64,000 nt of DNA from positions 3,038,001-3,102,000 of the forward strand of contig NZ_SMFZ01000002.1 of assembly GCF_004339565.1 (NCBI RefSeq), read 5' to 3'. This document shows, one piece after another, positions 1,062-51,459 of the stretch. Source of the DNA: Pseudonocardia endophytica. Its GTDB lineage: Bacteria > Actinomycetota > Actinomycetes > Mycobacteriales > Pseudonocardiaceae. Position 1 is the stretch's first letter, and the number at the start of each line of letters is the position of its first letter. A program made the position numbers and the translations under genes. Below the pieces are notes generated by a model, which was not told the DNA's origin, made no database searches, and was given only the letters and a program-made list of their open reading frames with translations.

Positions 1062-1116
1062 CCGAACGAACGGCACCTTCGAGCAGTGTGATTGCGCGAA
1101 GGTGCCGTTCGTTCGG
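1062..1116. terminator. Palindrome family 1, copy 1 (bidirectional terminator candidate)
   Basis: Perfect 20-bp arms (left 1062-1081, right 1097-1116) around a 15-nt loop lie between the convergent dipeptidase and DUF309 genes. The left arm reads CCGAACGAACGGCACCTTCG. Near-identical copies occur near 15.5, 24.8, 44.03, 44.15 and 51.4 kb. There is no obvious T-tract on either side. The rest of 959-1160 is low-complexity C/G-rich DNA in which I see no gene. Confidence 0.8.
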
Positions 1117-1160
1117 GAAGGGAGTGGGCGGCGGGCCCGCGGGGCCGGGTGGAGGCGGGG

Positions 1161-1643
1161 TCAGCCGCGGAGGCGGGGGCACAGCCCGTCCGCCGGCGCA
1201 TCGCCGTCCGTTCCGATCCGCTCCACCAGGTCGTCGGCATGGCGGCAGATCCCGTCGAGGTCCAGGCCGGCCGGGGCCGGAACGGTCGCGCCGACCCGCC
1301 ATCGCCGCACCCCTTCGGCGCCGCGCTCGAGCAACGAGACCGCACCACGGGCGTTGCCGCGCTGGGCGTGCGTCAGCCCGACGGCCACCTGCGCCAGTGC
1401 CCGCCACAGCTCACGGGTCTCCGGCCCGGCCGCCTTCCAGACGCCCTCCAGGACCTCGTGCGCCTGGAACGGCAGGCCGTCGTCGAGCAGTCGCTGGGCC
1501 TCGGCGACCGCGTCGTCGGGTTCGAGCACCAGGTCCTCCGGTACCCGCTCGACGCCATCGGCACCGTGTGGCAACGGGCGTCCGGCCGCGTCCCGCGGGC
1601 GCGCGTTGCGTGCCCGGCCCTGCTCGTCGCGGTCCCGTGCCAT
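1161..1643 (-). CDS. DUF309 domain-containing protein
   Basis: This 160-aa protein has the DUF309 core: an N-terminal RDAAGRPLPHG segment, then DGLPFQAHEVLEGVWK and a helix-rich tail with GLTHAQRGNARGA. The family is small, all-helical and of unknown biochemical function, widespread in Actinobacteria and Bacilli. The ATG at 1643 is preceded by a CAGGGT hexamer 7 nt upstream, consistent with a leaderless message. It is divergent from the SDR gene, with 34 nt between start codons, so the two may share a control region. Confidence 0.85.
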   Translation of the reverse strand: MARDRDEQGRARNARPRDAAGRPLPHGADGVERVPEDLVLEPDDAVAEAQRLLDDGLPFQAHEVLEGVWKAAGPETRELWRALAQVAVGLTHAQRGNARGAVSLLERGAEGVRRWRVGATVPAPAGLDLDGICRHADDLVERIGTDGDAPADGLCPRLRG

Positions 1644-1677
1644 GTGACCGACCCTGGCACACGACTACGGTCGCGGC

Positions 1678-2436
1678 ATGAGTGATCTCTTCGACGTCGG
1701 CGGCAAGGTTGCCGTCGTCACCGGCGGTACGAGCGGGATCGGGCGCATGATCGCCCGGGGTTTCGCCGAGGCAGGGGCGACGGTCTACGTCTCCAGCCGC
1801 AAGGCGGACGCGGTCGCCGAGACCGCCGCCGAGCTCGGCGTCACCGGGATCGCCGCGGACCTCTCCACCGAGGCCGAGTGCCTGCGGCTCGCCTCCGAGG
1901 TCGGCGGCCGCGAACAGCGGGTCGACGTGCTGGTGAACAACGCGGGCGCGACCTGGGGCGCGCCGTTGGAGGACTTCCCCGCGGCGGCGTGGGACAAGGT
2001 GCTCGACCTCAACGTGAAGTCGCCGTTCTTCCTGACCCGGGCGTTCCTGCCGCTGCTGGAGGCCGGCGCGACCGAGGACGACCCGTCCCGCGTGATCAAC
2101 ATCGGCAGCATCGACGGCCTGCGTGTGCCCGAGCTGCCGAACTACTCGTACTCGGCCAGCAAGGCGGCGGTGCACCAGCTCACCCGCGTGCTCGCCCGCG
2201 ACCTCGGACCGCGACGGATCACCGTGAACGCGATCGCGCCGGGGCCGTTCCCCAGCAAGATGATGCGCGCGACGCTGGAGGCGGCCGGGGACGAGATCGC
2301 CGCGGAGTCACCACTGGGGCGGATCGGGCGCCCGGACGACGTGATCGGTGCGAGCCGCTTCCTGGCCTCACGGGCCGGCTCCTACGTGACCGGCGCGGTG
2401 ATCCCGGTGGACGGTGGGATGTGGACGACGCGGTAA
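1678..2436 (+). CDS. SDR family oxidoreductase
   Basis: A 252-aa classical short-chain dehydrogenase/reductase. The Rossmann glycine motif TGGTSGIGR lies near residues 16-24, NNAG near residue 87, a catalytic Ser in NIGSIDG, and YSYSASKAA supplies the Tyr-x3-Lys pair. The C-terminal ending VTGAVIPVDGGM is typical of RhlG/FabG-like 3-oxoacyl reductases. The substrate cannot be read from sequence. TACGGT lies 6 nt before the ATG, so the mRNA is probably leaderless. The gene ends before the 19-bp repeat array. Confidence 0.92.
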   Translation: MSDLFDVGGKVAVVTGGTSGIGRMIARGFAEAGATVYVSSRKADAVAETAAELGVTGIAADLSTEAECLRLASEVGGREQRVDVLVNNAGATWGAPLEDFPAAAWDKVLDLNVKSPFFLTRAFLPLLEAGATEDDPSRVINIGSIDGLRVPELPNYSYSASKAAVHQLTRVLARDLGPRRITVNAIAPGPFPSKMMRATLEAAGDEIAAESPLGRIGRPDDVIGASRFLASRAGSYVTGAVIPVDGGMWTTR

Positions 2437-2470
2437 GTAGCGGCCGAACCGCGCCGGCGGGATGCGCGCT

Positions 2471-2826
2471 GGTCGGCGGGGTGCGTGCTGGTCGGCGGGA
2501 CGCGTTCTGATCCGGGGGACGCGCGTTGGTCGGCGGGGTGCGTGCTGGTCGGCGGGGTGCGTGCTGGTCCGCGGAACGCGCTCTGATCGGCGAAACGCGC
2601 TTTGATCCGCGGGACGCGCTCTGGTCGGCGGGGTGCGCTCTGGTCGGCGGGGTGCGCTCTGGTCCGCGGGACGCGCTCTGGTCCGCGGAACGCGCTCTGA
2701 TCGGCGGAACGCGCGCGTCCGGACGGGCGCGTTCGCCGGATCTGCGTGCGTTCGCCGGATCTGCGTGCGTTCGCCGGATCTGCGTGCGTTCGTGGGAACA
2801 GCGAGTGTTCGCCGGATCGGTGCATA
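2471..2826. repeat. 19-bp repeat array with an inverted second half
   Basis: Thirteen contiguous 19-bp units run from 2471 to 2717, for example GGTCGGCGGGGTGCGTGCT and GATCGGCGAAACGCGCTTT. After a 14-bp gap (2718-2731), five further 19-bp units (2732-2826, for example TTCGCCGGATCTGCGTGCG) match the reverse complement of the first type. The two halves could therefore pair into a long stem. The array fills the convergent gap between the SDR and LLM genes. Open frames here encode only the repeat and are not genes. Confidence 0.9.
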
Positions 2827-2885
2827 CCAAGCCGAGCGGGCGCCGCGGGACGAGCCGGTGCGAGGGAGGCGAGCCGGTGCGGCCC

Positions 2886-3809
2886 TCAGTCCTCCAGCGG
2901 GCCCATCTCGGCGGTGAACTCGTCGATGAATCCTTGCCAGTCCGCCACCGGACCGGCCGGGCGCACGACGAACTTGGTCAGCCCGCCCTCGACGTAGCGC
3001 CGGACGAGCTCGGCGGCGCCGTCCCAACCGTCCGCGACCAGGGACTTCGGGTCGACGTCCGGTCGCTGCGCGACGGCGCGCTGCAGCGCGGTGTCCGGGT
3101 CGATGCCGGGAAGCACGATCGAGATGTTCGTGCCGTAGTGGTCGTCCTCGACCTCGCGGCCGGACTCTCGCGCCGCGTCCTCGATCACCGTGCGGGCGCG
3201 GGCCGCCTCGTCCGGGGTGAGGAAGCTGCCCAGCCAGCCGTCGGCGAGCCGCCCGACCCGCCGGAGTCCGACGTCCGCGCGGCCGCCGAGCCAGAGATCC
3301 AGCGGCTTCTGCGGGCGCGGCACGACACGGGCCTCGTCGAGGTGGAAGTACGCGCCGTGGTGGGTGACGGACTCCTCGGTGAGCAGCCGTCGCACGACGA
3401 CGAGTGCCTCCTCGAACACGTCGGCACGCGTGCCGTCGACGGGGTAGAACTGGCGCTCCCGCTTCGTCGCGGCGCGCACGCCGAACGCGGGCAGGATCCG
3501 CTTCGGCGCCAGGACGGCCATGGTCGCGAGCTGTGCGGCCACGAGCGACGGGTTGCGGCCCGGCAGCACGAGCACGCCGGTGCCGACCTTGAGGTTCTGC
3601 GTGCGGGCGGCGGCCCACGCCATCCCGATCGTGGCGTCCGGCCCGCCCTGGGACACGAAGTCCGGCAACCACAGCGAGTCGATGCCCGCCTTCTCGATCG
3701 CATCCACGAACTCGTCGAACTCGGCGCCGGGCTCGGAACCCGACGGGCCGATGGAACCGATCCCGATCCTGACCTTCACGTCCGTCGACGCTAACCGGGC
3801 CTTCCTCAT
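2886..3809 (-). CDS. LLM class (probably F420-dependent) oxidoreductase
   Basis: A 307-aa luciferase-like TIM-barrel protein. It opens with VKVRIGIGSIGPSG and shows IDSLWLPDFVSQGGPD, LKVGTGVLVLPGRNP and LWLGGRADVGLRRVGRLADGWL. These blocks are usual in actinobacterial F420-dependent LLM enzymes, which move hydride between F420 and a small organic substrate. The ATG at 3809 forms an ATGA overlap with the VWA stop and suggests translational coupling. A GTG at 3779 would give the more usual N-terminus. It is the last gene of the co-directional 5685-2886 group. Confidence 0.88.
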   Translation of the reverse strand: MRKARLASTDVKVRIGIGSIGPSGSEPGAEFDEFVDAIEKAGIDSLWLPDFVSQGGPDATIGMAWAAARTQNLKVGTGVLVLPGRNPSLVAAQLATMAVLAPKRILPAFGVRAATKRERQFYPVDGTRADVFEEALVVVRRLLTEESVTHHGAYFHLDEARVVPRPQKPLDLWLGGRADVGLRRVGRLADGWLGSFLTPDEAARARTVIEDAARESGREVEDDHYGTNISIVLPGIDPDTALQRAVAQRPDVDPKSLVADGWDGAAELVRRYVEGGLTKFVVRPAGPVADWQGFIDEFTAEMGPLED

Positions 3810-4795
3810 CCCGCCAGGAGCCGGTTCAGTGCCGGTGCGACGTCACGGTGCGTGGCCACCGGCGCCATCCGGCCGCGGCCGAGACGGGCCAGGTCGCGGC
3901 CCAGCGGGGCGTCGTGCTCGCCGTCGGTCTCCAGCAGCACGTGCAGCTCCGGGAAGCGCCGGGCGATCAGGCGCGGGTCCGGGCCCGCGTTGTGCACGGC
4001 GTCGGTGAGCAGCACGGCCGTGCGCCGCCGGGCCGACGAGCGCTCCAGCTCGGTCAGCGCGACGGACAGCCCGAACCCGACGTTCGTCAGCCCGCGCGCC
4101 GGGATCCGGACCAGCTGGTCCAGCATCCGCGCCGGCGTCGTCGGCACGACCAGCGGCGACAGCACGGCCGCGTCCGACCAGAACGCGACGAGCGCGATCT
4201 GGTCACCGGACAGGTCCGCGGACAGCGCCGCGACCGTGGCCGCCGCGATCCGCACCTTCTCCCCACGCATCGAGCCGGACACGTCGACGATCAGCACGGC
4301 GGCCTTGCGCGGTCGCATCCGCTCGCGCACGACGATGTCGGTGTCCTCCGGCACCGGGCGCTCGGTGAGCACCTCGATCGTGCGGTCGAGGTCGATGTCG
4401 TCGCTGCGGTAGCGGTACGGGACCGACGCCAGCGCGCCGTTCCCGCGCTCGGCCCGCGGGTCGCGCGGTCGCCGCCGGAGCGACAGCCGTCGTGCGATCC
4501 GCTGCGCCATCCGGGCGACCTCGCGGTCCGGCGGAGCGTCCTCGAGCAGCTCGTCGAGGCCGCGCACCCGGGCCGTCTGCGACGTCAGCACGACGCCCTG
4601 GCCGCCCGCCTCCTGACGGTCGGTGTCGCCGTCGCCCCGCTGGGAACCGAGGTCGACGACGACCGGTGGCCCGGCACCGTGCTGGAACACCGACGGCGCC
4701 GCGTCGAGCAGCTTCGGCTTGCGGCGCAACGGTTCCCACGTCCGTCGGGCACCGCTGGACGCGGTGGGCAGCGCGACGGCGTTGTCGATGTTCAG
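3806..4795 (-). CDS. VWA domain-containing protein, partner of MoxR ATPase
   Basis: The C-terminal half is a von Willebrand A domain with an intact metal site: DVSGS in LIVDVSGSMRGE, a Thr in GLTNVGFGL and an Asp in LLTDAVHN. The N-terminal part is basic (MAQRIARRLSLRRRPRDPR). VWA proteins of this type work with MoxR AAA+ ATPases, as encoded by the next gene upstream, in chaperone-like cofactor or metal insertion. The start is uncertain. The coding pattern reaches the MoxR stop, where only a CTG (4795) overlaps as CTGA; the first conventional in-frame start is a GTG at 4690, giving 294 aa. Confidence 0.82.
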   Translation of the reverse strand: MNIDNAVALPTASSGARRTWEPLRRKPKLLDAAPSVFQHGAGPPVVVDLGSQRGDGDTDRQEAGGQGVVLTSQTARVRGLDELLEDAPPDREVARMAQRIARRLSLRRRPRDPRAERGNGALASVPYRYRSDDIDLDRTIEVLTERPVPEDTDIVVRERMRPRKAAVLIVDVSGSMRGEKVRIAAATVAALSADLSGDQIALVAFWSDAAVLSPLVVPTTPARMLDQLVRIPARGLTNVGFGLSVALTELERSSARRRTAVLLTDAVHNAGPDPRLIARRFPELHVLLETDGEHDAPLGRDLARLGRGRMAPVATHRDVAPALNRLLAG

Positions 4796-5685
4796 GCGGT
4801 GCGGACCCGGCGCTGCCCGCCGGGGGAGGAGAAAAAATGGTTCTCCCAGATCTCGGTGATCACCTGTTCCGGACCGACCTCGGCCGCCTCGTCCACCGCC
4901 ACCCGCGCCGAGAGCGCGAGCAGCGCGGCGTCGAGCACCCGCTGCTCGTGGGAGTCGTACGTGCCGAGGTTGTCCAGCTCGACGGCCAGCGCGACCGTGT
5001 CGATCGCCCCGCGCACGCTGGACCCGCGGCGCAGCTCGCCGTGGTCGCGCGTGGCCCGGGTGATCGCCACCGCGTCGGTGACCAGCCGGTCGTCGGTCGC
5101 GCCGGTGCGGACCCGGACGATGTCCGCCTCCTCGGCCGCGTCCTGGTAGCCGACGGCGAGCCGGCACCAGCGGTCGTAGACGGAGTCCGAGATCCGGGCG
5201 GTACCGACGTTGTCGAACGGGTTCATCGACGCCAGCACCCGGAACGTCGGGAGCGCCGCGATCGTGCCGACCCGGGGGACGGCCACCTCGCGCTCGGCCA
5301 TCGCCGCCAGCAGGACATTGAGCGTGTCCTCCGGCGCCCGGTTGAGCTCCTCGATGTAGAGGAACCCGCCGGTGGTCATCGCCTCCAGCAGTGGCCCGGC
5401 GACGAAGTTGTCCTCCGAGTAGTCCTCGCGCAGCACGCGCGCCGGGTTGTGGTGCCCCACCAGGCGCGACGGCGTCAGCTCCGCGTTGCCCTCGACCAGC
5501 ACGAACGGGATGTCCCAGTTGCGTGTGATCGCGCGCAGCACGGTCGACTTGCCGGTCCCCGGCGGGCCCTCCAGCAGGATGTCCCGGCCCGCCGTGACGG
5601 CCGCCAGCACCAGATCCAGTTCCCGGCGCCGCCCGACGAGGTCGGCGGCGATGCGGTCGCGGCGCTCCCGATTCGTTCCCGTCAC
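4792..5685 (-). CDS. MoxR family AAA+ ATPase
   Basis: A 297-aa AAA+ ATPase. Walker A is GPPGTGKS at residues 40-47 and Walker B is FLYIEELNR near 108-116. A sensor-1-type Asn lies in LASMNPFD and an arginine-rich segment in YDRWCRLAVGYQ. MoxR proteins pair with VWA proteins, here the overlapping downstream gene, and act as chaperones for metalloenzyme or complex maturation. It starts with GTG one nucleotide after the SDR stop. The client cannot be named; neighbouring oxidoreductases are only suggestive. Confidence 0.9.
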   Translation of the reverse strand: MTGTNRERRDRIAADLVGRRRELDLVLAAVTAGRDILLEGPPGTGKSTVLRAITRNWDIPFVLVEGNAELTPSRLVGHHNPARVLREDYSEDNFVAGPLLEAMTTGGFLYIEELNRAPEDTLNVLLAAMAEREVAVPRVGTIAALPTFRVLASMNPFDNVGTARISDSVYDRWCRLAVGYQDAAEEADIVRVRTGATDDRLVTDAVAITRATRDHGELRRGSSVRGAIDTVALAVELDNLGTYDSHEQRVLDAALLALSARVAVDEAAEVGPEQVITEIWENHFFSSPGGQRRVRTA

Positions 5686-5686
5686 G

Positions 5687-6529: not shown

Positions 6530-6664
6530 GCGGTGTCCCCTCACCTGGAGGCCGCGCCTCGCTGCGCGGCCCGTACCGACACCGTCGCGAGGGCCGAGGA
6601 GAGCGGTCAATACGACATCCGTGTGCGGTCGTGTTCTCTCCCAAGGACTCCGCACGGAGCGCAG

Positions 6665-6898
6665 CTAGGTGCCGGTCGGCCCGTCCGCCCGTCCGGAGCG
6701 GTCCGCGGGGTCTTCGGATCCCGTCTCCGACGGCGCGGGGGTGGCGTCCGACGACGCGCCGTCCCGCGGCTCGTCGTGCAGCTCCGCCTTCAGGATCCGC
6801 GCGGAACGGCCCAGGCTGCGGGCGGCGTCCGGCAACCGGCGGGCACCGAACAGCAGGACCGCGATCGCGATCACGATCAGCCAGTGCCACGGACTCAT
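6665..6898 (-). CDS. TatA-like twin-arginine translocase subunit
   Basis: A 77-aa protein: a short periplasmic start MSPWHW, one hydrophobic helix (about residues 5-18, LIVIAIAVLLFG), then the amphipathic ARRLPDAARSLGRSARILKAEL helix typical of TatA/E, and a charged disordered tail. TatA oligomers form the export path for folded proteins carrying RR signal peptides. No tatB or tatC lies nearby. The ATG at 6898 was chosen because the hydrophobic helix must be near the N-terminus. It is divergent from the PBP gene across about 190 bp. Whether it is the main TatA or a paralogue is not decidable here. Confidence 0.87.
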   Translation of the reverse strand: MSPWHWLIVIAIAVLLFGARRLPDAARSLGRSARILKAELHDEPRDGASSDATPAPSETGSEDPADRSGRADGPTGT

Positions 6899-7091
6899 CT
6901 CACCCAATGCCCACTCCTCTCCGCATCGGTCAGTCTGCCCGTTCCGACCCGCGCCCACCCGTCCGTGTGGCGGCATTCTCAGGCCATTCCCAGGAACTGT
7001 CGGAATCGTCCGTCGCTGGTGGTCCCCGGTGAACGGCGTCCGGATCGGGTGGTCCAGCACGGAGGGCGGATCGCCTGGTAGACCTGCACGC

Positions 7092-14611: not shown

Positions 14612-15047
14612 TGCCGACCTCCATGCCGCTGGCCATCGCGCCGTCCCGGGCGTCGACGCTCTCGAACGTCGACGTGCCGACGAGCCTGGTCCGCCCGTCG
14701 CCCAGGTCCTCGAACGTCAGCGTCTCCAGGCACACGCCGTCGGGCATGCCCTCCCACGTGAACGTCTGCACGATCCGCTCGTCCGGCCGGACCTCGTGGA
14801 ACGAGCCGTAGAACGAGTACGTGCCGTTCTCGTCGTGGTGGGCGTAGCGGTAGCCACCACCGGTGACCGCGTCGAACCGGTCGATGGTCATCCGCAGGCG
14901 GCGCGGGCCGAGCCACTGCTTGACCAGGTCCGCCTCGGTGTGGGCGCGGAACAGGTTGTGCACCGGTGCGTCGAACTCGCGTTCGATGCGGATCACCGGC
15001 AGGGCCGGGTCGGCGGTGATGCTGGTGGGGTTGGTGGTCTGGTTCAT
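14565..15047 (-). CDS. SRPBCC (AHSA1-like) family protein
   Basis: 160 aa with the START/Bet v1-like AHSA1 fold: VIRIEREFDAPVHNLFRAHTEADLVKQWLGP, FDAVTGGGYRYAHHDENGTYSFYGSFHEV and a C-terminal helix MASGMEVGINEGYEQLDELMGRL. Members bind hydrophobic ligands; a catalytic role is rarely known. The ATG overlaps the ArsR stop (ATGA at 15047-15044). ArsR-SRPBCC gene pairs are a common arrangement in which the regulator controls the ligand-binding protein. The 3' end overlaps the convergent PadR gene. Confidence 0.9.
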   Translation of the reverse strand: MNQTTNPTSITADPALPVIRIEREFDAPVHNLFRAHTEADLVKQWLGPRRLRMTIDRFDAVTGGGYRYAHHDENGTYSFYGSFHEVRPDERIVQTFTWEGMPDGVCLETLTFEDLGDGRTRLVGTSTFESVDARDGAMASGMEVGINEGYEQLDELMGRL

Positions 15048-15394
15048 GACTGCTCCTCGGTGTGGTCGTGCTCAGGGGAATCCATCGCGGCGAGCAGGGC
15101 GTCGAGACGCTCGTAGCGCGCCTCGGCCTGCCGCCGGTACCGCTCGATCCATGCCGTCATCAGGTCGAACACCTCCGCCTCGAGGTGGACCGGACGGCGT
15201 TGGGCCTCCCGGGTCCGGGAGACGAGCCCCGCGTCCTCGAGCACCTTGAGGTGCTTCGAGACGGCCTGCAGGGACACGTCGTAGGGCTCGGCGAGCTCGT
15301 TCACCGTCGCGTCGTCGGCCGCCAGCCGGGCGACCATGTCGCGCCGGATCGGGTCGGCGAGTGCGGAGAACACCCGCGAGAGCCGGTCGTCCAT
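15044..15394 (-). CDS. ArsR-family transcriptional regulator
   Basis: 116 aa, a winged-helix ArsR/SmtB fold: SRVFSALADPIRRDMVARLAADDATVNELAEPYDVSLQAVSKHLKVLEDAGLVSRTREAQRRP. No cysteine metal-binding motif is present, so it belongs to the non-metal ArsR type usually paired with SRPBCC genes. It is the first gene of a two-gene unit and is coupled to the SRPBCC gene by ATGA. Two CAACC-N4-GGTTG dyads directly upstream (15410-15425 and 15454-15471) are good candidates for its own operators and suggest autoregulation. Confidence 0.92.
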   Translation of the reverse strand: MDDRLSRVFSALADPIRRDMVARLAADDATVNELAEPYDVSLQAVSKHLKVLEDAGLVSRTREAQRRPVHLEAEVFDLMTAWIERYRRQAEARYERLDALLAAMDSPEHDHTEEQS

Positions 15395-15487: not shown

Positions 15488-15541
15488 CGAACGAGGGGCA
15501 CGTTCGAGCAATCACACTGCTCGAAGGTGCCCCTCGTTACG
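15488..15541. terminator. Palindrome family 1, copy 2
   Basis: Arms starting CGAACGAGGGGCACGTTCGAGCA and its complement (one mismatch over about 23 bp) flank a short loop. It lies just after the pirin stop codon and before the ArsR operators. This is the only family copy between two co-directional genes, which fits a terminator for pirin. Confidence 0.75.
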
Positions 15542-15555: not shown

Positions 15556-16542
15556 TCAGGGCGTGGTGTTGCCCAGGCTGCCGTGCGGGACGTAGTTCGC
15601 CGGGATCACGCCGAGGCGTCCGCGCTGGTAGTCCTCGAACGCCGTCATGACCTCCTCGCGGGTGTTCATCACGAACGGCCCGGCCCAGGCGACCGGCTCG
15701 CGGATCGGCAGCCCACCGAGGATCACGACATCCAGGCCGGGCAGGCGGGACTCCTGGGACGTGTTGCCGGACACGGTGATCAGGTCACCCGGTCCGAACA
15801 CGGCGAGCTGTCCGGTGTGGATCGGCTGACCGTCGCGGCCGACCGTGCCCGCTCCGGAGAGCACGTAGACCAGCGCGTTGTACTCCCGCGGCCACGGCAG
15901 GCGCAGCTGCGCGCCGGGCGAGATCGTCGCGTGCACCATCGCCATCGGGGTGTTCGTCGCGCCGGGGCCGCTGACCGCCCCGACGTCGCCGGCGATCACG
16001 CGGAGCAGGGCGCCGCCGTCCGACGAGGTGAGCAGGCCGGCCTCGGCCGCCCGGAGGTCCTGGTACTTCGGCTCGACCCACTTGTCCTTGCGCGGCAGGT
16101 TCACCCAGAGCTGCAGGCCGTGGAACAGTCCGCCGGAGCGGACCAGCGCCTCCGGCGGCCGCTCGATGTGCAGCAGGCCGGAGCCCGCCGTCATCCACTG
16201 CGTGTCGCCATTGGTGATCGTGCCACCGCCGCCGTGCGAGTCACCGTGCTCGAACGTGCCGTCGATGATGTAGGTGACGGTCTCGAAGCCGCGGTGCGGG
16301 TGCCAGTCGGTTCCCTTCGGCTCGCCGGGCGCGTACTCGACCTCGCCCATCTGGTCCATGTGCAGGAACGGGTCCAGGTCGCGCATGTCGACCCCGGCGA
16401 ACGCGCGGCGGACCGGGAAGCCCTCGCCCTCGTGGCCGGACGGGGCGGTCGTCACCTGGCGGACGCCGCGGTCGAGGTCGGTCGGCCCCGGTTCCGGGAC
16501 GCGGGGAAGGGTGGTGACGTCGGAGACGGTCACGGCGGGCAT
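15556..16542 (-). CDS. Pirin family protein
   Basis: 328 aa, a bicupin pirin. The N-terminal cupin has the metal motif HPHRGFETVTYIIDGTFEHGDS, and the second half has YNALVYVLSGAGTVG and DVVILGGLPIREPVAWAGPFVMNT. Bacterial pirins can be quercetin 2,3-dioxygenases or act as redox or protein-interaction modulators; which applies here is unknown. Start ATG 16542 is supported by GGAGG 5 nt upstream. A family-1 palindrome follows the stop. Confidence 0.93.
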   Translation of the reverse strand: MPAVTVSDVTTLPRVPEPGPTDLDRGVRQVTTAPSGHEGEGFPVRRAFAGVDMRDLDPFLHMDQMGEVEYAPGEPKGTDWHPHRGFETVTYIIDGTFEHGDSHGGGGTITNGDTQWMTAGSGLLHIERPPEALVRSGGLFHGLQLWVNLPRKDKWVEPKYQDLRAAEAGLLTSSDGGALLRVIAGDVGAVSGPGATNTPMAMVHATISPGAQLRLPWPREYNALVYVLSGAGTVGRDGQPIHTGQLAVFGPGDLITVSGNTSQESRLPGLDVVILGGLPIREPVAWAGPFVMNTREEVMTAFEDYQRGRLGVIPANYVPHGSLGNTTP

Positions 16543-18033: not shown

Positions 18034-18062
18034 CCCCGCCGGGTGGCGTGTCGCACCTCCGC

Positions 18063-18102
18063 CCGGCGTGTCGCACCGGTTGCGGCGGGTGCGACACGCC
18101 GG
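18063..18102. terminator. 15-bp perfect inverted repeat
   Basis: CCGGCGTGTCGCACC (18063-18077) pairs perfectly with 18088-18102 around a 10-nt loop. A partial third copy of GTGTCGCACC lies just upstream near 18048-18057, so alternative pairings are possible. It sits between the convergent PPOX and alpha/beta-hydrolase genes. There is no T-run. Confidence 0.8.
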
Positions 18103-18180
18103 AGCGGGGTGCGGCGGTGAGCGAACCGGTGCGGCACGCGGTGACCGGCGCGGTGCCGGCCGGTCCGGCGGTGCGCCGGC

Positions 18181-23831: not shown

Positions 23832-24749
23832 ATGCCACGGATCGAGCTGGGCAGCTATGTCGAGGCGTTCGTCCTCTGGCTGCTGCAGGCGATACCCGGC
23901 CTGCTCGACGGCATCGGGGCCGTCGTCGAGGCCGTGGTCGACGCGCTCACGGTCGTGCTGACGGGGCCGCCGTTCTGGGTGTGGGTGATCATCCTGACGG
24001 TGGCCGCGCTGCTGGTCCGCGGTTGGGGCCTGGCCGTGTTCACGCTGGTCGCGTTCCTGCTGGTGGACTCGCTGAACCTGTGGCAGGAGACGATGGAGAC
24101 GCTCGGCGTCGTGATCGTCGCCGCGGTGATCGCGACGGCGATCGGCGTCCCGCTGGGCATCTGGGCGGCCCGCAGACGGGCGGCCGGCACGGTGCTGCGG
24201 CCGCTGCTGGACCTGATGCAGACCACACCGGTGTTCGTCTACCTGATCCCGGCCGTGTTCTTCTTCGGCATCGGCGTCACCCCGGGTGTGGTCGCGACGA
24301 CCGTGTTCTCCATCCCGCCCGCCGTCCGCCTGACCGAGCTGGGCATCCGCGGCGTGGACTCCGAGGTCGTCGAGGCGGCGCACGCGTTCGGCGCCCACCC
24401 GCGCCAGATCCTGCGCGAGGTGCAGCTGCCGATGGCGCTGCCGTCGATCATGGCAGGCATCAACCAGGTGATCATGCTGGCGCTGTCCATGGTGGTCGTC
24501 GCCGGCCTGGCAGGCGCCGGGGGACTGGGCACCGTCGTGGTGAGCGCGGTGACCCAGCTGGACATCGCGTCCGGGTTCGAGGGCGGACTGGCGGTCGTGA
24601 TCGTGGCGATCTTCCTGGACCGCTTCACGTCCGCACTCGCCGAGCGTCCGAGCCGCGGCCTCTGGTCGAAGCTGCGCGCCCGCCGTACGTCGACCGCGCC
24701 CGCGGCGGGCGCCGACGAGTCCCGCTCGCCGCAGCCCGCCGCGGCCTGA
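23832..24749 (+). CDS. Glycine betaine-type ABC transporter permease (ProW-like)
   Basis: A 305-aa integral membrane protein with about seven hydrophobic segments. The permease EAA-type loop is EAAHAFGAHPRQILREVQLPMALPSIMAGINQ. An N-terminal amphipathic stretch precedes FWVWVIILTVAALLV. It transports the substrate presented by the upstream lipoprotein, powered by ProV. It is the last gene of the TauD-ProX-ProV-ProW operon, and a family-1 palindrome follows 15 nt after its stop. Confidence 0.94.
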   Translation: MPRIELGSYVEAFVLWLLQAIPGLLDGIGAVVEAVVDALTVVLTGPPFWVWVIILTVAALLVRGWGLAVFTLVAFLLVDSLNLWQETMETLGVVIVAAVIATAIGVPLGIWAARRRAAGTVLRPLLDLMQTTPVFVYLIPAVFFFGIGVTPGVVATTVFSIPPAVRLTELGIRGVDSEVVEAAHAFGAHPRQILREVQLPMALPSIMAGINQVIMLALSMVVVAGLAGAGGLGTVVVSAVTQLDIASGFEGGLAVVIVAIFLDRFTSALAERPSRGLWSKLRARRTSTAPAAGADESRSPQPAAA

Positions 24750-24765: not shown

Positions 24766-24816
24766 CAACGAACGGCACCTTCGAGCAGTGGCATTGCTCG
24801 ACGGTGCCGTTCGTTC
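24766..24816. terminator. Palindrome family 1, copy 3
   Basis: AACGAACGGCACCTTCGAGCA pairs with its complement ending near 24815, with one mismatch, around a small loop. It lies between the convergent ProW and MerR genes. Upstream it is preceded by CTCTTT but no downstream T-tract is present. Confidence 0.78.
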
Positions 24817-24839: not shown

Positions 24840-25586
24840 CTACTGCAGCTGCGCGTTCGCGTAGACGGTCATCGCGTCGCGCAGGTACGGCGTCAGGCCC
24901 TCGGCGTAGCCGTCGATCGTCGCGGTGAACCGCGGGTCGGACACGTACATCTCGCCGAGCCCGACGTAGGCCTCCCGGCCGGGGACCCAGAACCGGCTGA
25001 CCCACGCGTGGTGCGCGCCGACGGCGTCCTGCACGGCCGGGGCATCGACGGGCGTGCCGGCCGCCATCAGCTCGGCCAGCCTGCGGTGCACGGCGTTCAT
25101 CTCCCCGTGCACCTCCGCCGCCGTCTCCCGGTCCCAGCCGGCCGCCGTCTGCTGGACGGCGACGGCCTCGTCGCCCCACCGCTCGCGCGCCTCGGCGCCG
25201 TGCGGGTCGTCGCGGAACGCCGCGAACATCTCCTCGGCACTCATCGGGTCTCCCCCTTCGGACTCGTCGATGGACTTCGCGACGGTGGCGGCGAGCCGCA
25301 GCAGGCGGTCCGCGTCGGCGAGCAGGCGGTCGTGGTGGCGGCGCAGCGCCGCGACCTCGTCGTCCTGCCCGTCGAGCACCGACGCGATCTCCGCCAGGCC
25401 CATCCCGAGCTCGCGCAGCAGCAGCACGTGCTGAAGCCGCCGCAGCTCGGCACGTCCGTAGACCCGCTGGCCGCCCGCACCGGTGCCGGCCGGGACGAGC
25501 AGCCCCACGTGGTCGTAGTGCCGCAGCGTCCGCGAGCTGATCCCGGTCAGGCGGACCAGCTCGGCCGTGGACCAGCTCTCCGTCAC
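24840..25586 (-). CDS. MerR-family regulator with TipAS effector domain
   Basis: 248 aa. The N-terminal MerR helix-turn-helix and wing are STAELVRLTGISSRTLRHYDHVGLLVPAGTGAGGQRVYGRAELRRLQHVLLLRELGMGLAEIASVLD. A coiled coil then leads to a TipAS-like antibiotic-recognition domain (MSAEEMFAAFRDDPHGAEARERWGDE, VHRRLAELMAAG). TipA-type regulators bind thiopeptides or other xenobiotics and activate promoters. GTG 25586 has TAGCGT 7 nt upstream. A TTGAC-GTCAA dyad lies midway between this start and the divergent kinase start. Confidence 0.92.
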   Translation of the reverse strand: MTESWSTAELVRLTGISSRTLRHYDHVGLLVPAGTGAGGQRVYGRAELRRLQHVLLLRELGMGLAEIASVLDGQDDEVAALRRHHDRLLADADRLLRLAATVAKSIDESEGGDPMSAEEMFAAFRDDPHGAEARERWGDEAVAVQQTAAGWDRETAAEVHGEMNAVHRRLAELMAAGTPVDAPAVQDAVGAHHAWVSRFWVPGREAYVGLGEMYVSDPRFTATIDGYAEGLTPYLRDAMTVYANAQLQ

Positions 25587-44026: not shown

Positions 44027-44075
44027 AACGAACGGGCCGTTCGAGCAATCATGTTGCTCGAACGGCCCGTTCGTT
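44027..44075. terminator. Palindrome family 1, copy 4
   Basis: Perfect 22-bp arms (44027-44048 and 44054-44075) around a 5-nt loop. The core is GGGCCGTTCGAGCAA rather than GGCACCTTCGAGCAA, with compensating changes in both arms. It is the first of two tandem palindromes between the convergent DUF2867 and sugar-ABC genes. Confidence 0.85.
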
Positions 44076-44131
44076 CGCGCGGTCGTCCCCCCCGCCTCAC
44101 CCGGCCCACTCGCGCCACCCGCCCCGCCCCG

Positions 44132-44184
44132 CGAACGAGCGGCACCTTCGGGCAATGGCATTGCTCGAAGGTGCCGTTCGTTCG
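44132..44184. terminator. Palindrome family 1, copy 5
   Basis: Arms beginning CGAACGAGCGGCACCTTCG and its near-complement, with two mismatches that allow wobble pairing, around a CAATGGCATTG centre. It lies 57 bp after copy 4, so this gap has one strong signal for each converging operon. Confidence 0.8.
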
Positions 44185-44225
44185 GAAGGGGAGAGGTGGG
44201 GCGGCCCGGACGAGTGGGTGGGCGC

Positions 44226-45500: not shown

Positions 45501-45533
45501 GGCCGGTCGGTTCCTTTCTCGAGAAGTACGGGA

Positions 45534-46367: not shown

Positions 46368-47326
46368 CACTTCTCCCCTCGTGCCTGGGACAGGTCGACC
46401 TTGAATCCCTTGATGAACAGCGCGCAGATCAACGCGACGGACAGGAACAGCAGCACCGAGACCGCCGATCCGAGCCCGATCTCGACACGCGAGATCGTCT
46501 GCCGGTAGGCCAGGAACGACACCGTCTCCGTCGAGTTCGCGCCGCCCGTCATGACGAACACGCTGTCGAACACGCGGAACGCGTCCAGCGTGCGGAACAG
46601 CAGCGCGACCATGATCGCGGCCTTCATGTTCGGGATGGTCACCTTCGTCATCCGCTGCCACCAGGACGCGCCGTCGACCTTGGCGGCCTCCTGCAGCACG
46701 TCGGGCACCTGGGCCAGTCCGGCGAGCAGCAGCAGCGAGATGAACGGCGTGGTCTTCCAGATCTCGGCCAGGCAGATCACGAACAGCGACGACCACGTGC
46801 CGTCGAACCACGCCGTGTCCGCCGTGATGCCGGGGATCCAGTCGAACCACGAGTTCACGAACCCGGAGTCGGCCGAGAACGCGAACTGCCAGGCGAACGC
46901 GGACACGACGGTGATCACCGCGTACGGGATCAGGATCGCGGCCCGCAGGATCGGCCGGATCGCCTGCAGCGCCTTCATCATCACCAGCGCCAGCGCGAAG
47001 CCGAGCACCAGCTCGACGGCGACCGTGACCACCGTGATGAACAGCGTGACGCCGAACGAGGTCCACCAGATCTCGTCGCCGAGCACGACGAGGTAGTTGT
47101 TGATCCCGATGAACTCGCGGTTCTCCGGGTCGGTGAGCCGGTAGTCGAACAGGGAGTAGTAGAACGCCTGGACGATCGGGTACGCCGTGACCAGCAACAT
47201 GATCACGAACGCCGGTCCGGCGAGCATCCAGCCGAGCCGCTGCTCGGCCTTCGCCCGGTCGCTGGCGCCGCCCGGTCCCGGAGCCGGGTCCGTCGTGGAG
47301 GGAGTCCGTTCCGTCGTGGTCGTCAC
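46367..47326 (-). CDS. Sugar ABC transporter permease (MalF/SugA-like)
   Basis: 319 aa. After a Thr/Pro-rich cytoplasmic lead come six membrane helices and the EAA loop LQEAAKVDGASWWQRMTKVTIPNMKA. FVIMLLVTAYPIVQAFYYSLFDYRL is typical of the MalF/SugA side. GTG 47326 overlaps the binding-protein stop (GTGA). Confidence 0.93.
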   Translation of the reverse strand: MTTTTERTPSTTDPAPGPGGASDRAKAEQRLGWMLAGPAFVIMLLVTAYPIVQAFYYSLFDYRLTDPENREFIGINNYLVVLGDEIWWTSFGVTLFITVVTVAVELVLGFALALVMMKALQAIRPILRAAILIPYAVITVVSAFAWQFAFSADSGFVNSWFDWIPGITADTAWFDGTWSSLFVICLAEIWKTTPFISLLLLAGLAQVPDVLQEAAKVDGASWWQRMTKVTIPNMKAAIMVALLFRTLDAFRVFDSVFVMTGGANSTETVSFLAYRQTISRVEIGLGSAVSVLLFLSVALICALFIKGFKVDLSQARGEK

Positions 47327-48621
47327 AGGAGCTTCTCCTTCGCCAGGACCGCGCGGATCAGGTCCGCGGTCGCGGGGCCGACGGTGTTCGGGTCGATACC
47401 GCCCGGCGGGTGGTAGAGCCGCTGGATCGACTCCGAGACCTCGGAGTAGTAGGCCGTCTGCGGGCGCGGCTTCGCCTGCTGCAGCGACTGCGCGATGACC
47501 GGGGCCATCGGGAACTCCTTGACCACCTCCGGGTCGGTGAAGACCGAGATCTTCGCCGCGGGGTTGCCGTTGGTCAGGAAGTACTGCTTCTGGTTCTCGG
47601 TCGAGACGATGCACTCGGTCGCCTGGTAGGACAGGTCGACGTTGGTGCTGAACGCGCTGACGCCCAGGTTGATCCCGCCGTAGGGCGGGGCGCTCGGCTT
47701 CGACGCGTCGGTGCGCGGGTAGAGCGCCCACCCGTAGTCGGACTGGGTGCTGGCCGGGGCGGTGCCGTCCTCGACGGCGCTCTTGACCTTGCCCCAGATG
47801 AACGGCCAGATCGGCGAGAACATCGCGTCGCCGTCCTGGAACGCGGTGGCGTTCTCGTCCTCGCCCGACGTGGAGAAGCTGGACCCGGCGACGGGTGCGG
47901 TCGCCTTCATGATCTCGGCGGCCTTCGTCGAAGCCGGTGAGTCGAGCCCGAGCTGGACACCCTTCGGGTCGCCGGGCGACGGGTTGGTGATGATCTCGCC
48001 GCCGCCGCTCTCGACGAGCGCGTTCAGCCAGACCGTCAGCGACTCGGCGCGCTTGCCCTGTGCGGCGACCTGCTTGTTCTTCTTCTGCGCCGCGGCGATG
48101 ACCTGGTCCCACGTGACCGGCTTGGACATGTCCAGCCCGGTCCCGGCCATCATCGACTTGCGGTACCAGAGCAGCTGCGTGTTCGCCCAGAACGGGACGG
48201 TGACGAGCTTGCCGTCCCAGCTCGCGCCCTCCTTCGCGGAGTTCGCGACGCCCGCGGTGGTGCGCTGACCGACGTCGGCAGGCACCGGAGCCAGGAACCC
48301 GGCCTCGGAGAACTCCGGGATGTAGGGCGGGTCGATGCTCATGATGTCGATCGACGTGTCGTTCGCGGCGAGGCGGCGGACGAGCTGCTGGCGCTGCTCG
48401 GACGACTCGCGCGGCAGCGTCGAGACGGCGATCTGGTACTTCCCGCCGGACGCCGCCGTGCATTTCTGCGCGATCTCGGCCTGGCCGCCGTCGTCCGGGT
48501 TGATGAACCAGGTCAGGGTCGGTGGCCCGGCGGGCCCTCCGGCGCATCCGGCGAGACCGGCGAGGGCGGCGACCGCCACACCGGCCGCCAGGACGCGGCT
48601 CCTCCATCTACGGCGACGCAT
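47323..48621 (-). CDS. Sugar ABC transporter substrate-binding lipoprotein (LpqY-like)
   Basis: 432 aa with lipobox LAGC (Cys26). The mature protein shows an LpqY-like pattern: TLTWFINPDDGGQAEIAQKC, VSTLPRESSEQRQQLVRRLAANDTSIDIMSID, WANTQLLWYRKSMM, TVWLNALVESGGGEI and GGINLGVSAFSTN. Similarity to mycobacterial LpqY and the identical gene order (LpqY-SugA-SugB-SugC) suggest trehalose or another alpha-glucoside as ligand; this is inference. It is the first gene of the operon. A LacI-type operator lies 189 bp upstream. Confidence 0.9.
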   Translation of the reverse strand: MRRRRWRSRVLAAGVAVAALAGLAGCAGGPAGPPTLTWFINPDDGGQAEIAQKCTAASGGKYQIAVSTLPRESSEQRQQLVRRLAANDTSIDIMSIDPPYIPEFSEAGFLAPVPADVGQRTTAGVANSAKEGASWDGKLVTVPFWANTQLLWYRKSMMAGTGLDMSKPVTWDQVIAAAQKKNKQVAAQGKRAESLTVWLNALVESGGGEIITNPSPGDPKGVQLGLDSPASTKAAEIMKATAPVAGSSFSTSGEDENATAFQDGDAMFSPIWPFIWGKVKSAVEDGTAPASTQSDYGWALYPRTDASKPSAPPYGGINLGVSAFSTNVDLSYQATECIVSTENQKQYFLTNGNPAAKISVFTDPEVVKEFPMAPVIAQSLQQAKPRPQTAYYSEVSESIQRLYHPPGGIDPNTVGPATADLIRAVLAKEKLL

Positions 48622-48809
48622 GGGCGTTCAACTCCGAACTCTCTGCGGGACGGGGACGGACGGGACGGGGACAGGGACGGCGGACGTGCCCGGCGCGGGC
48701 GGCGACCGTTCGTCGGGGAGGGGAGCGGGGACGGGTCCGTTCGGGCGCACCGGCACGGACCTCCCCCTCGTCGACGTCCCGGCAGGTCGGATCCGGCAGG
48801 CCCCTCGCC

Positions 48810-48823
48810 TGGAAACGCTTTCA
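48810..48823. promoter_or_regulatory. LacI-family operator upstream of the sugar ABC operon
   Basis: TGGAAACGCTTTCA fits the TGNAANCGNTTNCA consensus of LacI/GalR regulators exactly. On the minus strand a TTGACA (about 48858-48853) and a weak TCAGAG lie just upstream, so a bound regulator would block initiation of the lpqY-sugABC-like operon. Confidence 0.82.
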
Positions 48824-48918
48824 ACCTCGAACTCTGACCCCTTCGTGTGATAGGTGTCAAGGGTCACAATCGTGATCGTTATGGCTGCGTGAGAGATTCA
48901 GCCAGATTCAGAAGTAAG

Positions 48919-48932
48919 TGCAAACGCTTCCA
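48919..48932. promoter_or_regulatory. LacI-family operator upstream of the LacI gene
   Basis: TGCAAACGCTTCCA also fits TGNAANCGNTTNCA. It lies 23 bp before the LacI GTG, between the divergent sugar-ABC and regulator genes. The two sites are 109 bp apart, so autoregulation or looping is plausible. Confidence 0.82.
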
Positions 48933-48954
48933 AGATTTCGGGTTATCGTGAGCC

Positions 48955-49989
48955 GTGCCCTCCTCGGTCAATCTGGCCGACGTCGCCCGCCTGGCGGGGG
49001 TGTCGCCGGCGACGGCGTCACGGGCGCTGTCCGACCATCCGCACGTCGCACCGAGCACGCGGGAACGGGTCTGGCGGGTCGCGCGGGAGCTCGAGTACGT
49101 CGTGTCCCCGGAGGCGTCCCGGCTGGCCGGAGGGGCGACGGGCCGGGTTGCGGTCGTCGTCCCGCACCTGTCGCGCTGGTACTTCGGCGCCGTGCTGGAG
49201 GGGTTGGAGGCGGGGCTGCGGACCGCCGGGTTGGACCTGCTGCTCTACCGGGTCGGTGACGCCGCGGACCGCGCCGCGTTCTTCACCGAGCTACCGGCGC
49301 GGCGCAAGGTCGACGCCGTCGTGCTGGTCGGGCTGGCCGTCGACGACGAGGAACGGGGCCGTTTGGAGCGGATCGGCGTGCAGATCGTCGCTGCGGGCGC
49401 CCAGGTCGCCCCGCACCCGTCGGTGCGGATCGACGACCACGTGGCCGGGCGCCAGGCCGTCGACCACCTCGTCCATCTCGGACACAAACGGATCGCGATG
49501 ATCGCCGCCTACGATCCCGAGCAGCGCGGCGCGCACCCGGCCGGACGGACGTCGGCGTACTTCGCGGCGCTGGCCGACGCCGGGCTGCCGGTGGACGAGG
49601 AGCTGGTGCGGACCGTGGGCTGGGGCGCGGACGAGGGGGCCGAGGCGATGGGCACTTTGCTCGGGCGGTCGGCACCGCCGACGGCGGTCTACGCGCACTC
49701 CGACGAGGTGGCGCTCGGTGCGCTCCGCACACTGCGCCGGGCCGGCCTGCGGGTGCCCGACGACGTGTCGGTGATCGGCGTGGACGACCACCCGCTGGCC
49801 GCGCTGACCGACCTGTCCACGGTCGGCCAACCCGCCGGGGAGGTGGGGACGATCGCCGGCCGGATGGTCGTCGCCGGCCTGCGTGGTGAGGCGTTCGAGG
49901 CGCCGGTCCTGGTCCCTACCCGGCTGGTGGTGCGTGGCAGCACCGGGCCGCCCCGCCCGGATCGTGCTCTCGGACGGAGGAGGCGGTGA
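48955..49989 (+). CDS. LacI-family transcriptional regulator
   Basis: 344 aa. The N-terminal HTH and hinge are VNLADVARLAGVSPATASRALSDHPHVAPSTRERVWRVARELEYVVSPEASRLA, followed by a periplasmic-binding-like sensor (VAVVVPHLSRWYFGAVLEGLEAGLRTAGLDLLLYRVG, DDVSVIGVDDHPLA). It most likely represses the divergent sugar importer through the two operators in the shared 333-bp gap and is relieved by the imported sugar. GTG 48955; TATCGT lies 5 nt upstream. Confidence 0.94.
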   Translation: MPSSVNLADVARLAGVSPATASRALSDHPHVAPSTRERVWRVARELEYVVSPEASRLAGGATGRVAVVVPHLSRWYFGAVLEGLEAGLRTAGLDLLLYRVGDAADRAAFFTELPARRKVDAVVLVGLAVDDEERGRLERIGVQIVAAGAQVAPHPSVRIDDHVAGRQAVDHLVHLGHKRIAMIAAYDPEQRGAHPAGRTSAYFAALADAGLPVDEELVRTVGWGADEGAEAMGTLLGRSAPPTAVYAHSDEVALGALRTLRRAGLRVPDDVSVIGVDDHPLAALTDLSTVGQPAGEVGTIAGRMVVAGLRGEAFEAPVLVPTRLVVRGSTGPPRPDRALGRRRR

Positions 49990-51311
49990 TGGCGGTTCCG
50001 GAGCTGACGATGCGCGCCACCGGCCCCGAGCTGCTGGCTCTCCCGTGGGACCAGCCGCTCGGCGAGTGGAGCGTCACCGACGTCCCGATCCGCGACGTGC
50101 CGGTGGGGCCGAGCCGTCATCTCGTCCGGTTCGTGGAGGCGGACGGGACGCTGTGGGCGCTCAAGGAGCTGCCGGAGCGGATCGCGCGCCGCGAGTACGA
50201 GGTGCTGCGCCGGCTCGAGGTCGACGGGCTGCCCGCCGTGCGACCGGCGGGGGTCGTGCACCAGCCGGAGCACGACGCGTCGATCCTGGTCACGCGCTAT
50301 CTCGTCGGGTCGTGGCAGTACCGGCGGCTGTTCCTGCGGCTGCCGCCCAACCGCCCGCGCCACCGCGCCCGGCTGTTCGACGCGATGGCCGGGCTGCTCG
50401 TCGAACTGCACCGGCACGGCGTGTTCTGGGGCGACTGCTCGCTGGCGAACACGCTGTTCATGCGCGACGGGCAGCTGTTCGCGGCCTACCTGGTGGACGC
50501 CGAGACCAGCGAGGTCCACGCCACGATCTCGAACGGCCAGCGCGAGCACGACCTGGACATCATGGTCGAGAACGTGGCCAGCGGGATGATCGACCTGGCG
50601 ACGCGGCTGGAGCGCCCGCCGGAGATCTACCCGCAGCTGATCGAGGAGGCGCAGGGCATTCCGGACCGGTACCGGGCGCTCTGGGACGCGCTGCACGCCA
50701 CCCCGACGTTCGCGTTCGGCGACCGGTACCGGGTGGAGGGCAAGATCCGCGAGCTGAACGACCTCGGGTTCGCCGTCGACGAGCTGTCGCTACGGCCCGT
50801 CGAGGGCGACGCGGGGCAGGCGCGCCTGCAGGTCGCGGTGGGCGACAAGACGTTCCACAGTGAACGGTTGCGGGAGCTGACCGGACTGGACGTGGGAGAG
50901 GGGCAGGCGACGATCCTGCTCGGCGACCTGCGTGCCCACCAGGACTGGCTGCGACGTCGGACCGGTCACGAGGCGGGCGGCGACGAGCTGGCGCGCAGCT
51001 GGCGGGACGTCTGCTTCGACCCCGGCACGGCTGCGGCGCACGAGGCTCTGGGCGGGGTGGGCACGCCGGTGCAGGCCTACTGCGACCTGCTCGAGGTGCG
51101 GTGGATCCTCTCCGAGCGTGCCGGCGCCGACGTCGGCAACGACGCCGCACTGGCGGCGCTCGGCAACTCCGCGCCGACCGACTCGGCCGCGCGCACCGCC
51201 GTCGCGGACGCCGACACGGGGCAGATCCCGCGCCTGGACCCGGGCCTGCTGCACACGCTCGACGCGGAAGCGGGCATGTACGACGAGGACGCCCGCAACC
51301 GCGACCTGTAG
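49989..51311 (+). CDS. DUF4032 domain-containing protein (kinase-like N-terminus)
   Basis: 440 aa. The N-terminal part resembles small kinase folds: LWALKELPERIARREYEVLRRLE, LLVELHRHGVFWGDCSLANTLF (a catalytic-loop-like HRHGVFWGDCSLAN) and YLVDAETSEVH (DFG-like position). The DUF4032 region follows, with VQAYCDLLEVRWILSERAG. The activity is unproven. ATG 49989 is chosen because GGAGG lies 8 nt upstream; GTG 49986 would overlap the LacI stop by four. It lies immediately downstream of LacI, so it may be co-transcribed with it. Confidence 0.88.
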   Translation: MAVPELTMRATGPELLALPWDQPLGEWSVTDVPIRDVPVGPSRHLVRFVEADGTLWALKELPERIARREYEVLRRLEVDGLPAVRPAGVVHQPEHDASILVTRYLVGSWQYRRLFLRLPPNRPRHRARLFDAMAGLLVELHRHGVFWGDCSLANTLFMRDGQLFAAYLVDAETSEVHATISNGQREHDLDIMVENVASGMIDLATRLERPPEIYPQLIEEAQGIPDRYRALWDALHATPTFAFGDRYRVEGKIRELNDLGFAVDELSLRPVEGDAGQARLQVAVGDKTFHSERLRELTGLDVGEGQATILLGDLRAHQDWLRRRTGHEAGGDELARSWRDVCFDPGTAAAHEALGGVGTPVQAYCDLLEVRWILSERAGADVGNDAALAALGNSAPTDSAARTAVADADTGQIPRLDPGLLHTLDAEAGMYDEDARNRDL

Positions 51312-51404
51312 CGGGCTGCTCGGGCTCGGCCGGGACGTCCTGACGGTGCTCCTGCCCACCGACGAGCTGCAGCCGGCCGGCACGGGGAGCAGTGCCCCCG
51401 ACCT

Positions 51405-51459
51405 CCGAACGAACGGCACCTTCGAGCAACGGCATTGCTCGAAGGTGCCGTTCGTTCGG
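51405..51459. terminator. Palindrome family 1, copy 6
   Basis: Perfect 25-bp arms (51405-51429 and 51435-51459) around a 5-nt loop CGGCA, the longest perfect copy. It is located between the convergent DUF4032 and EF-G2 genes. The remaining sequence to 51520 is G/C-rich and non-coding. Confidence 0.85.

Follow-up and report, generated by a model that had tools for sequence, protein, structure and literature searches.

The 64,000-nucleotide stretch of Pseudonocardia endophytica DNA analyzed here (contig NZ_SMFZ01000002.1, positions 3,038,001 to 3,102,000, hereafter the window) contains six near-identical palindromes at the ends of genes, which belong to a genome-wide family of hairpin repeats with a rigid 49-bp core. 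We read the element, with modest confidence, as a spreading palindromic repeat that is kept at gene ends as a bidirectional terminator hairpin without a U-tract.

A 49-bp palindrome family at gene 3′ ends

As the first-pass annotation of the window had suggested, the consensus was searched in the whole P. endophytica genome (7.57 Mb, two contigs) and in related genomes, and a family of the same design was recovered in both. A broad pattern for the 49-bp palindrome gave 119 matches in P. endophytica and 0 for the reversed control, while a search with an 18-nt arm, allowing 3 mismatches at most, gave 129 forward and 122 reverse matches, compared to 4 and 0 for the reversed pattern. A fixed-length scan of 1.664 Mb of contig C2, which requires one of three anchor triplets, returned 34 copies and none in the reversed control; C2:2699894 (14 mismatches) was excluded from the 33-copy counts used below and retained in the list of copies inside open reading frames (ORFs). 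A hairpin scan of the same DNA that made no use of sequence found 41 strong hairpins, 23 of them members of the 49-bp family by our count. The core is a rigid 49 bp, made of two arms of about 21 nt and a 7-nt center: among inverted arm pairs 15 to 150 bp apart, 29 lay at an offset of 32 and the only others, two at 139, joined neighboring copies.

The copies were mapped relative to gene ends, as had also been proposed, using genes called by our own dicodon caller with a Pfam check on 10 window proteins and 7 ORFs containing copies, and they lie at 3′ ends both in P. endophytica and in its relatives. The 33 P. endophytica copies comprised 13 in convergent regions, 13 in tandem regions, 1 in a divergent region and 6 in ORFs. 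Compared to the share of intergenic bases, convergent regions held 13 of the 27 intergenic copies where 4.1 were expected (p = 5e-5), and divergent regions held 1 where 8.9 were expected (p = 3e-4); per base, convergent regions were also favored over tandem ones (13 copies in 27,884 bp versus 13 in 95,967 bp). In P. kunmingensis, on stretches selected for holding copies, 38 copies divided into 11 convergent, 23 tandem, 1 divergent, 2 inside genes and 1 at an edge, and among the 35 intergenic ones the convergent count exceeded expectation (11 versus 5.7, p = 0.019) and the divergent count fell far below it (1 versus 11.0, p = 3e-5). A third set of 109 copies (loci L111-L220, duplicates removed, including one P. 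endophytica copy, L119, and a few P. kunmingensis copies) gave 62 convergent, 32 tandem, 6 inside genes and 9 at edges, with 0 of the 94 intergenic copies divergent. Within tandem gaps, the copy lay closer to the upstream stop in 9 of 13 cases in P. endophytica, 17 of 23 in P. kunmingensis and 22 of 32 in the third set. In many cases, the copy starts within 30 bp of a stop codon, and in some the stop is overlapped.

Pairing between the arms is preserved through sequence change. In the 33 P. endophytica copies, 31 of them distinct, pairing holds in 91.1% of cells, and cells changed on both sides numbered 21 compared to 13.5 after shuffling, a value reached in 4 of 500 shuffles; the number of pairs with a double change (7 versus 5.7) and of further pair types (11 versus 9.7) lay within the shuffles. 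In 68 distinct copies from named other genomes, 93.3% of cells pair and double-changed cells numbered 168 compared to 71.1 (0 of 500 shuffles). The search pattern holds some columns of this set constant, so the covariation signal comes from the free columns. The three innermost pairs are unpaired in 14-18 of these 68 copies. Genomes G024 and G065 matched at 100% over six 3,047-base loci (within L345-L365) and differed at three palindromes examined (in loop letters, with Ns at one). The differences were read as assembly errors and the two genomes were dropped as a close pair with changed loops; the comparison suggests that assemblies built from short reads cannot be trusted at hairpins of this type.

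In the window itself, all six palindromes reported by the first-pass annotation are present (Table 1), and its placement of five between convergent genes and one after the pirin gene was borne out by gene calls and Pfam. The compensating change it described in copy 4 (GGGCCG for GGCACC) is matched in both arms, and no T-tract follows the window palindromes on either strand, as it had stated. A 17-nt arm with up to 3 mismatches matched 13 times in the window compared to 0.24 expected, a count reached in 0 of 100 shuffles; one of the 13 (12763) is not in any palindrome. When the inverted repeats of the window are ranked by length, the top 25 include copies 2, 3, 4 and 6 as separate arm pairs (I14, I10, I9 and I7), and copies 1 and 5 sit within longer, looser repeats (I3 and I4). 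Copy 5 pairs over its whole length as RNA if G-U pairs are counted, and copies 1-3 contain mismatches. The core of copy 2 starts 17 bp after the stop of the pirin gene (Pfam Pirin, 7.2e-30), and the ArsR-type regulator gene beyond it is on the same strand.

Table 1. Palindromes of the window and one flank, with genomic setting and predicted RNA minimum free energy (MFE, kcal/mol; range for the six copies -37.5 to -48.9)
Feature	Positions	Strand	Setting	MFE
Copy 1, 55-bp palindrome	1062..1116	.	convergent region: Peptidase_M19 gene ends at 958 (+), DUF309 gene at 1161 (-)	-45.3
Copy 2, 54-bp palindrome	15488..15541	.	after pirin gene (15556-16542, -), before ArsR-type regulator gene (15044-15394, -)	-40.2
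Copy 3, 51-bp palindrome	24766..24816	.	convergent region: BPD_transp_1 permease gene ends at 24749 (+), MerR/TipAS regulator gene at 24840 (-)	-37.5
Copy 4, 49-bp palindrome, GGGCCG arms, perfect 22-bp arms	44027..44075	.	between convergent genes ending 43998 (+) and 44226 (-)	-42.9
Copy 5, 53-bp palindrome	44132..44184	.	shares its convergent region with copy 4; cores offset by 107 bp	-45.5
Copy 6, 55-bp palindrome, perfect 25-bp arms	51405..51459	.	convergent region: DUF4032 gene ends at 51311 (+), EF-G-like gene at 51521 (-)	-48.9
G-rich outward flank of copy 1	1117..1140	+	illustrates the G-rich flanks found outward of copies in the P. endophytica genome	

Two double copies were observed, at 44027-44184 of the window and at C2:304144-304299, each exactly 107 bp from core to core and separated by 58 bp of C-rich sequence. 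P. endophytica has another family of hairpin repeats, with GGCGTGYCGCACC / GGTGCGRCACGCC arms, which was spotted by eye at 18052-18113 of the window and at C2:1803006, 2886269, 3150542 and 3351723.

Copies in other genomes and in reading frames, and sites without the element

At up to 2 mismatches, at least one match was found in 46 of 62 Pseudonocardia genomes (P. endophytica included), with 0 to 191 matches per genome and none in 16 genomes; a slightly different pattern gave 221 matches in G003. A single match in a genome may be due to chance, as another listing contained at least one match that was not a palindrome. With 1 mismatch allowed, the host family gave matches in 32 of 297 genomes, belonging to 6 of 46 genera, and more than 2 matches per genome occurred only in two genera. 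In an exact scan of named genomes, 78 of the 80 stretches among the matches listed came from Pseudonocardia or Actinomycetospora, and the other two from a 'Pseudonocardiales bacterium' and from Rhodococcus koreensis. The R. koreensis match (L194:1322-1370) is a lone palindrome of the 49-bp design outside the clade, and it lies between convergent genes. The inner arms and loop differ by species (for example TACCTAG or CTTCCGAAG), with outer design and length constant, and the arms still pair in both Pseudonocardia and Actinomycetospora. The exact whole palindrome had 0 matches in the named genomes, from which the P. endophytica record was possibly left out, and a 75-base query with copy 6 had no match in plasmid and phage collections. 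A literature search aimed at Pseudonocardia and Streptomyces, with Actinomycetospora outside its scope, found no paper on such a repeat in Pseudonocardia.

An outer sequence common across genera (partly fixed by the search pattern) would also suit a protein-binding site, in which two 15-bp near-palindromes (CGAA-N7-TTCG) 30 bp apart would be bound by a factor of the roadblock or chromosome-organizing type. In the 1.664 Mb of C2, 34 of 37 close spacings of arm units are exactly 30, some P. endophytica copies have one half flipped so that the two units stand in direct orientation, and in G072 arm-like units form a 30-bp tandem array with a ACGAGAGCTCCGTTCG core (C1:2951515-2951621). We nevertheless consider a protein site improbable, as copies of one genome carry different self-matching arms, which is not expected from a single protein specificity, and as no mismatch-free single unit occurs outside pairs in the same 1.664 Mb; its 128 single units all have 1-2 mismatches and lie mostly in genes, whereas the reversed sequence has 69 units when every kind is counted. 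A 189-bp repeat at L268:13650-14023 is made of units similar to those of the G072 array. DNA uptake sequences are marked by single arms greatly over-represented genome-wide, and a pair of such sequences was rejected on these single-unit counts and spacings.

Seven P. endophytica ORFs contain a copy (six of the 33 plus the degenerate one), and all are open. Four gave Pfam matches over the cut-off (E1-E2_ATPase, HypF, hydantoinase A and FAD_binding_2), one gave a weak Sacsin match below it and two gave none. The E1-E2_ATPase ORF is KdpB-like by our own reading, Pfam naming only E1-E2_ATPase and hydrolase, and alignment against relatives left 38-55 gap columns, the element included, in 21 of 21, of which the core makes up only 17 residues. 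In the HypF-like ORF, the element lies at residues 206-222, and the matches of 26 genomes split at about 188-199 and 227-245; HypF-like loci in G032, G012 and G006 align without such a split. One frame is used in 11 of 15 copies inside ORFs (5 of 7 in P. endophytica and 6 of 8 in other genomes; p = 0.002 if independent), and it encodes a hydrophilic peptide of the NERH..ESAVR type. Four of the 8 copies in other genomes, where ORFs are as called and the Pfam check covered those of P. endophytica, end within 12 residues of the C-terminus, that is, at the gene end.

The edges of the repeat were sharp and set in unrelated flanks in a profile of 33 of the 38 P. kunmingensis copies (16 of 49 columns fixed by the pattern). 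The core there holds about 1.7-1.9 bits per position, and conservation in the flanks drops to background over about 20 bp, apart from some 14 bp common to a subset of copies. Queries made by joining the flanks of copies, 205 in number, gave 12 matches without a 49-base gap, and of seven inspected two were clear orthologous element-free sites. The flanks of a G064 copy (L118) align across the junction, beside which they are offset by 2 bases, to element-free P. endophytica DNA (C2 near 1502200-1502340), and the P. endophytica copy at C2:152327 is absent from G035 (L290) together with about 20 bp around it. These element-free sites speak for movement, and the sharp edges, the copies inside ORFs, the extra columns of the KdpB-like ORF and the lack of orientation bias in the loop (below) are further signs of a mobile repeat. 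The moving unit would measure near 49 bp at the G064 site and be longer in the KdpB-like ORF. In G072, both neighbors of a P. endophytica copy lie within 6 kb of each other at six places, with the direct neighbors the same at three; five of the six have no family-type hairpin, one of those five (C2:3013173) having an unrelated hairpin. The diverged G072 gaps that were compared showed no clean junction, and joined gene ends used to find copy 6 in relatives gave a readable gap only at the P. endophytica locus.

Other repeats were observed around copies. Another palindromic repeat, with center CGACAGATCTGTCG, occurs in P. kunmingensis (L340:8763-9162, L342:4430-4600 and L331:18070-18240), and in L340 it is broken by an insert of about 170 bp that has ATC on both sides and carries a 49-bp copy. 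In Pseudonocardia sp. TRM90224, a longer repeat is found with and without a 49-bp copy inside (L184:4049 and L171:1084-1195).

The terminator reading and its rivals

Convergent gaps of 40-250 bp were scored for hairpins outside the family. Among those without a family copy, 38 of 100 contained another hairpin (score at least 9), compared to 8 of 184 divergent gaps (p = 6e-13) and 0 of 100 convergent gaps after mononucleotide shuffling. Convergent gaps with a family copy contained a second hairpin in 1 of 12 cases (one-sided p = 0.036 against the 38 of 100). The sequence beside the stems does not form a classical U-tract, the outward T fraction being 0.09-0.14 in the first 18 nt of 54 flanks (27 non-gene P. 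endophytica copies). These flanks are instead rich in outward G, which reaches 0.69 at +7..12 on both strands, compared to 0.33 at the same distance after stops in convergent regions without a copy (202 flanks) and 0.45 beside 17 other P. endophytica hairpins; G-richness is lower in relatives than in P. endophytica.

The repeat family, its fixed length, the compensated pairing, the position at 3′ ends, the copies in ORFs and the places in relatives with and without the element are direct observations; from them, we infer movement as DNA, machinery that brings it about, and termination. The 49-bp palindrome would spread as DNA through a trans-acting activity that may read the conserved outer arm (AACGAACGGC...TCG) together with the hairpin shape. 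Copies that land just after stops, above all between convergent genes, would be retained because the transcript of either strand may fold into a GC-rich stem of 20-25 bp and so act as a bidirectional terminator without a U-tract, perhaps assisted by the G-rich flank after the stem. In its full form, this proposal describes a mobile terminator, a 49-bp hairpin spread by an activity of non-RAYT type (see below) that reads the conserved outer arms, supplies two-way terminators across Pseudonocardia and Actinomycetospora and enters ORFs in a tolerated frame; taken whole, we put it at a little under an even chance.

Ordinary terminators, multiplied as a hairpin family through gene conversion and retained by selection in the absence of transposition, would account for the placement and for the unrelated hairpins at other convergent ends. 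They would also account for the hairpin that G072 has in place of copies 4 and 5, which is of the same design but differs in its arms. Passages of PMC12207403 describe, from Term-seq in Streptomyces, terminator hairpins that are long, stable and poor in U. Pairing alone would suffice for ordinary terminators, and neither the conserved outer sequence nor the exact length would be needed; the copies in ORFs with clear Pfam domains and the empty sites do not fit them either, and we regard this explanation as very improbable.

The main rival is a purely selfish repeat that spreads widely and survives only at gene ends because it damages promoters and reading frames elsewhere, its hairpin serving its own copying and not termination. 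The frame bias of copies inside ORFs would fit such a repeat, as would families that are specific to species, the Pseudonocardia genomes without a match and the loss of significance of the gap comparison at a stricter score (below). A loop neutral in orientation fits it as well: the asymmetric TACCTAG loop of P. kunmingensis stood in the same direction as transcription in 10 copies and in the opposite direction in 10, with 3 unassignable. An RNA-specific loop was rejected, as this loop shows no strand bias. The preference per base for convergent over tandem gaps speaks against a selfish repeat, though tandem gaps also contain promoters, and so does the pairing preserved through changes, though pairing could serve copying. 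We consider this rival unlikely.

Several results weigh against the reading of the element as a spreading terminator. With a hairpin score of at least 11, the gap comparison becomes 26 of 100 versus 1 of 12 (p = 0.16, not significant), and masking a copy shortens the gap and leaves less DNA for a second hairpin. For these reasons, it is firm only that unrelated hairpins mark convergent ends, and use by the copies of the place where other hairpins sit is weakly supported. The gene caller is a simple one, and selection clearing copies from promoters and genes could also yield the observed placement. Copies inside genes or upstream regions, which the first-pass annotation had named as an outcome contrary to its view, occur in part, with 6 of 33 in ORFs and 7 when the degenerate copy is counted, whereas divergent regions are avoided. 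The same holds for arms that vary without compensation: at least 3 of 21 positions are unpaired in 8 of the 33 P. endophytica copies, next to the compensation described above, and two of five within-genome covariation measures were not clearly above shuffles (71 of 500 and 89 of 500). Unpaired arms showed only a trend with position inside genes (p = 0.14). No target duplication was found for the 49-bp core, including at the two element-free sites, which fit insertion or loss alike, and no candidate enzyme for the spread was found. The extra DNA at copies inside genes exceeds the core, so the moving unit may be longer than 49 bp. The G072 hairpin that corresponds in position to copies 4 and 5, which has 2 mismatches to the broad pattern, indicates that some sites may be old and shared.

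Relation to known repeats and significance

The first-pass annotation had offered bidirectional terminators and a repetitive extragenic palindromic (REP)-like element that targets gene ends as alternatives. A bidirectional terminator fits the 3′-end placement and the compensating arms, and it does so jointly with a REP-like element. The gene-end part of the REP-like proposal holds here and in relatives, whereas membership in the class of REP elements with a REP-associated tyrosine transposase (RAYT) was rejected, as the RAYT domain Y1_Tnp (PF01797) had 0 matches in the P. endophytica genome. PF01797 was matched in 5 of 62 Pseudonocardia genomes, the copy-rich G000, G003 and G031 not among them, and the same model matched 5 of 14 controls. 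The element resembles REP/REPIN sequences in its many small extragenic hairpins per genome and differs from them in being a palindrome of fixed length; REP elements carry a GTAG signature. Like miniature inverted-repeat transposable elements, it is a dispersed, non-coding inverted repeat, but nearly its whole core is inverted repeat. No autonomous partner was found among arm pairs up to 150 bp apart, and no target duplication was found for the core; the one ATC duplication observed flanks the longer insert in L340.

Hairpins at gene ends are known in other forms. The I-shaped and X-shaped hairpin terminators of actinobacteria stand at gene ends without a U-tract, and the TRIT repeats of the RNIE paper are reportedly hairpins at gene ends like the 49-bp element. 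Rfam gave 0 matches at gathering score in the window. TRIT repeats are mentioned in a passage of PMC3526491. By a definition of our own drawn from passages of PMC10969869, the element is SPRITE-like, being a small dispersed repeat with a terminator-like hairpin at gene 3′ ends; SPRITEs, compared by description only, belong to another phylum, and the element here differs in its fixed 49-bp core and lack of a U-tract. It also shares with the Rickettsia palindromic elements (RPEs) described in the same passages a palindromic repeat found in frame within protein genes, with in-frame read-through in the 7 P. endophytica ORFs and 8 elsewhere. According to PMC10969869, RPEs measure about 150 bp and occur mostly within ORFs, whereas the 49-bp element is mostly extragenic and at gene ends. 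The kind of element is therefore already known as far as these passages describe it, and what is new is the host clade, the fixed core and the combination of a conserved outer arm with an inner arm that varies freely yet stays paired.

How transcription ends in GC-rich actinobacteria with few U-tracts is still poorly understood. Some genomes hold about 120-220 copies and other Pseudonocardia species have no match, which makes the family a natural experiment on RNA 3′ ends. The family would show how a genome can gain terminators through copying instead of slow mutational change, and it points towards a putative new enzyme that moves very small hairpins.

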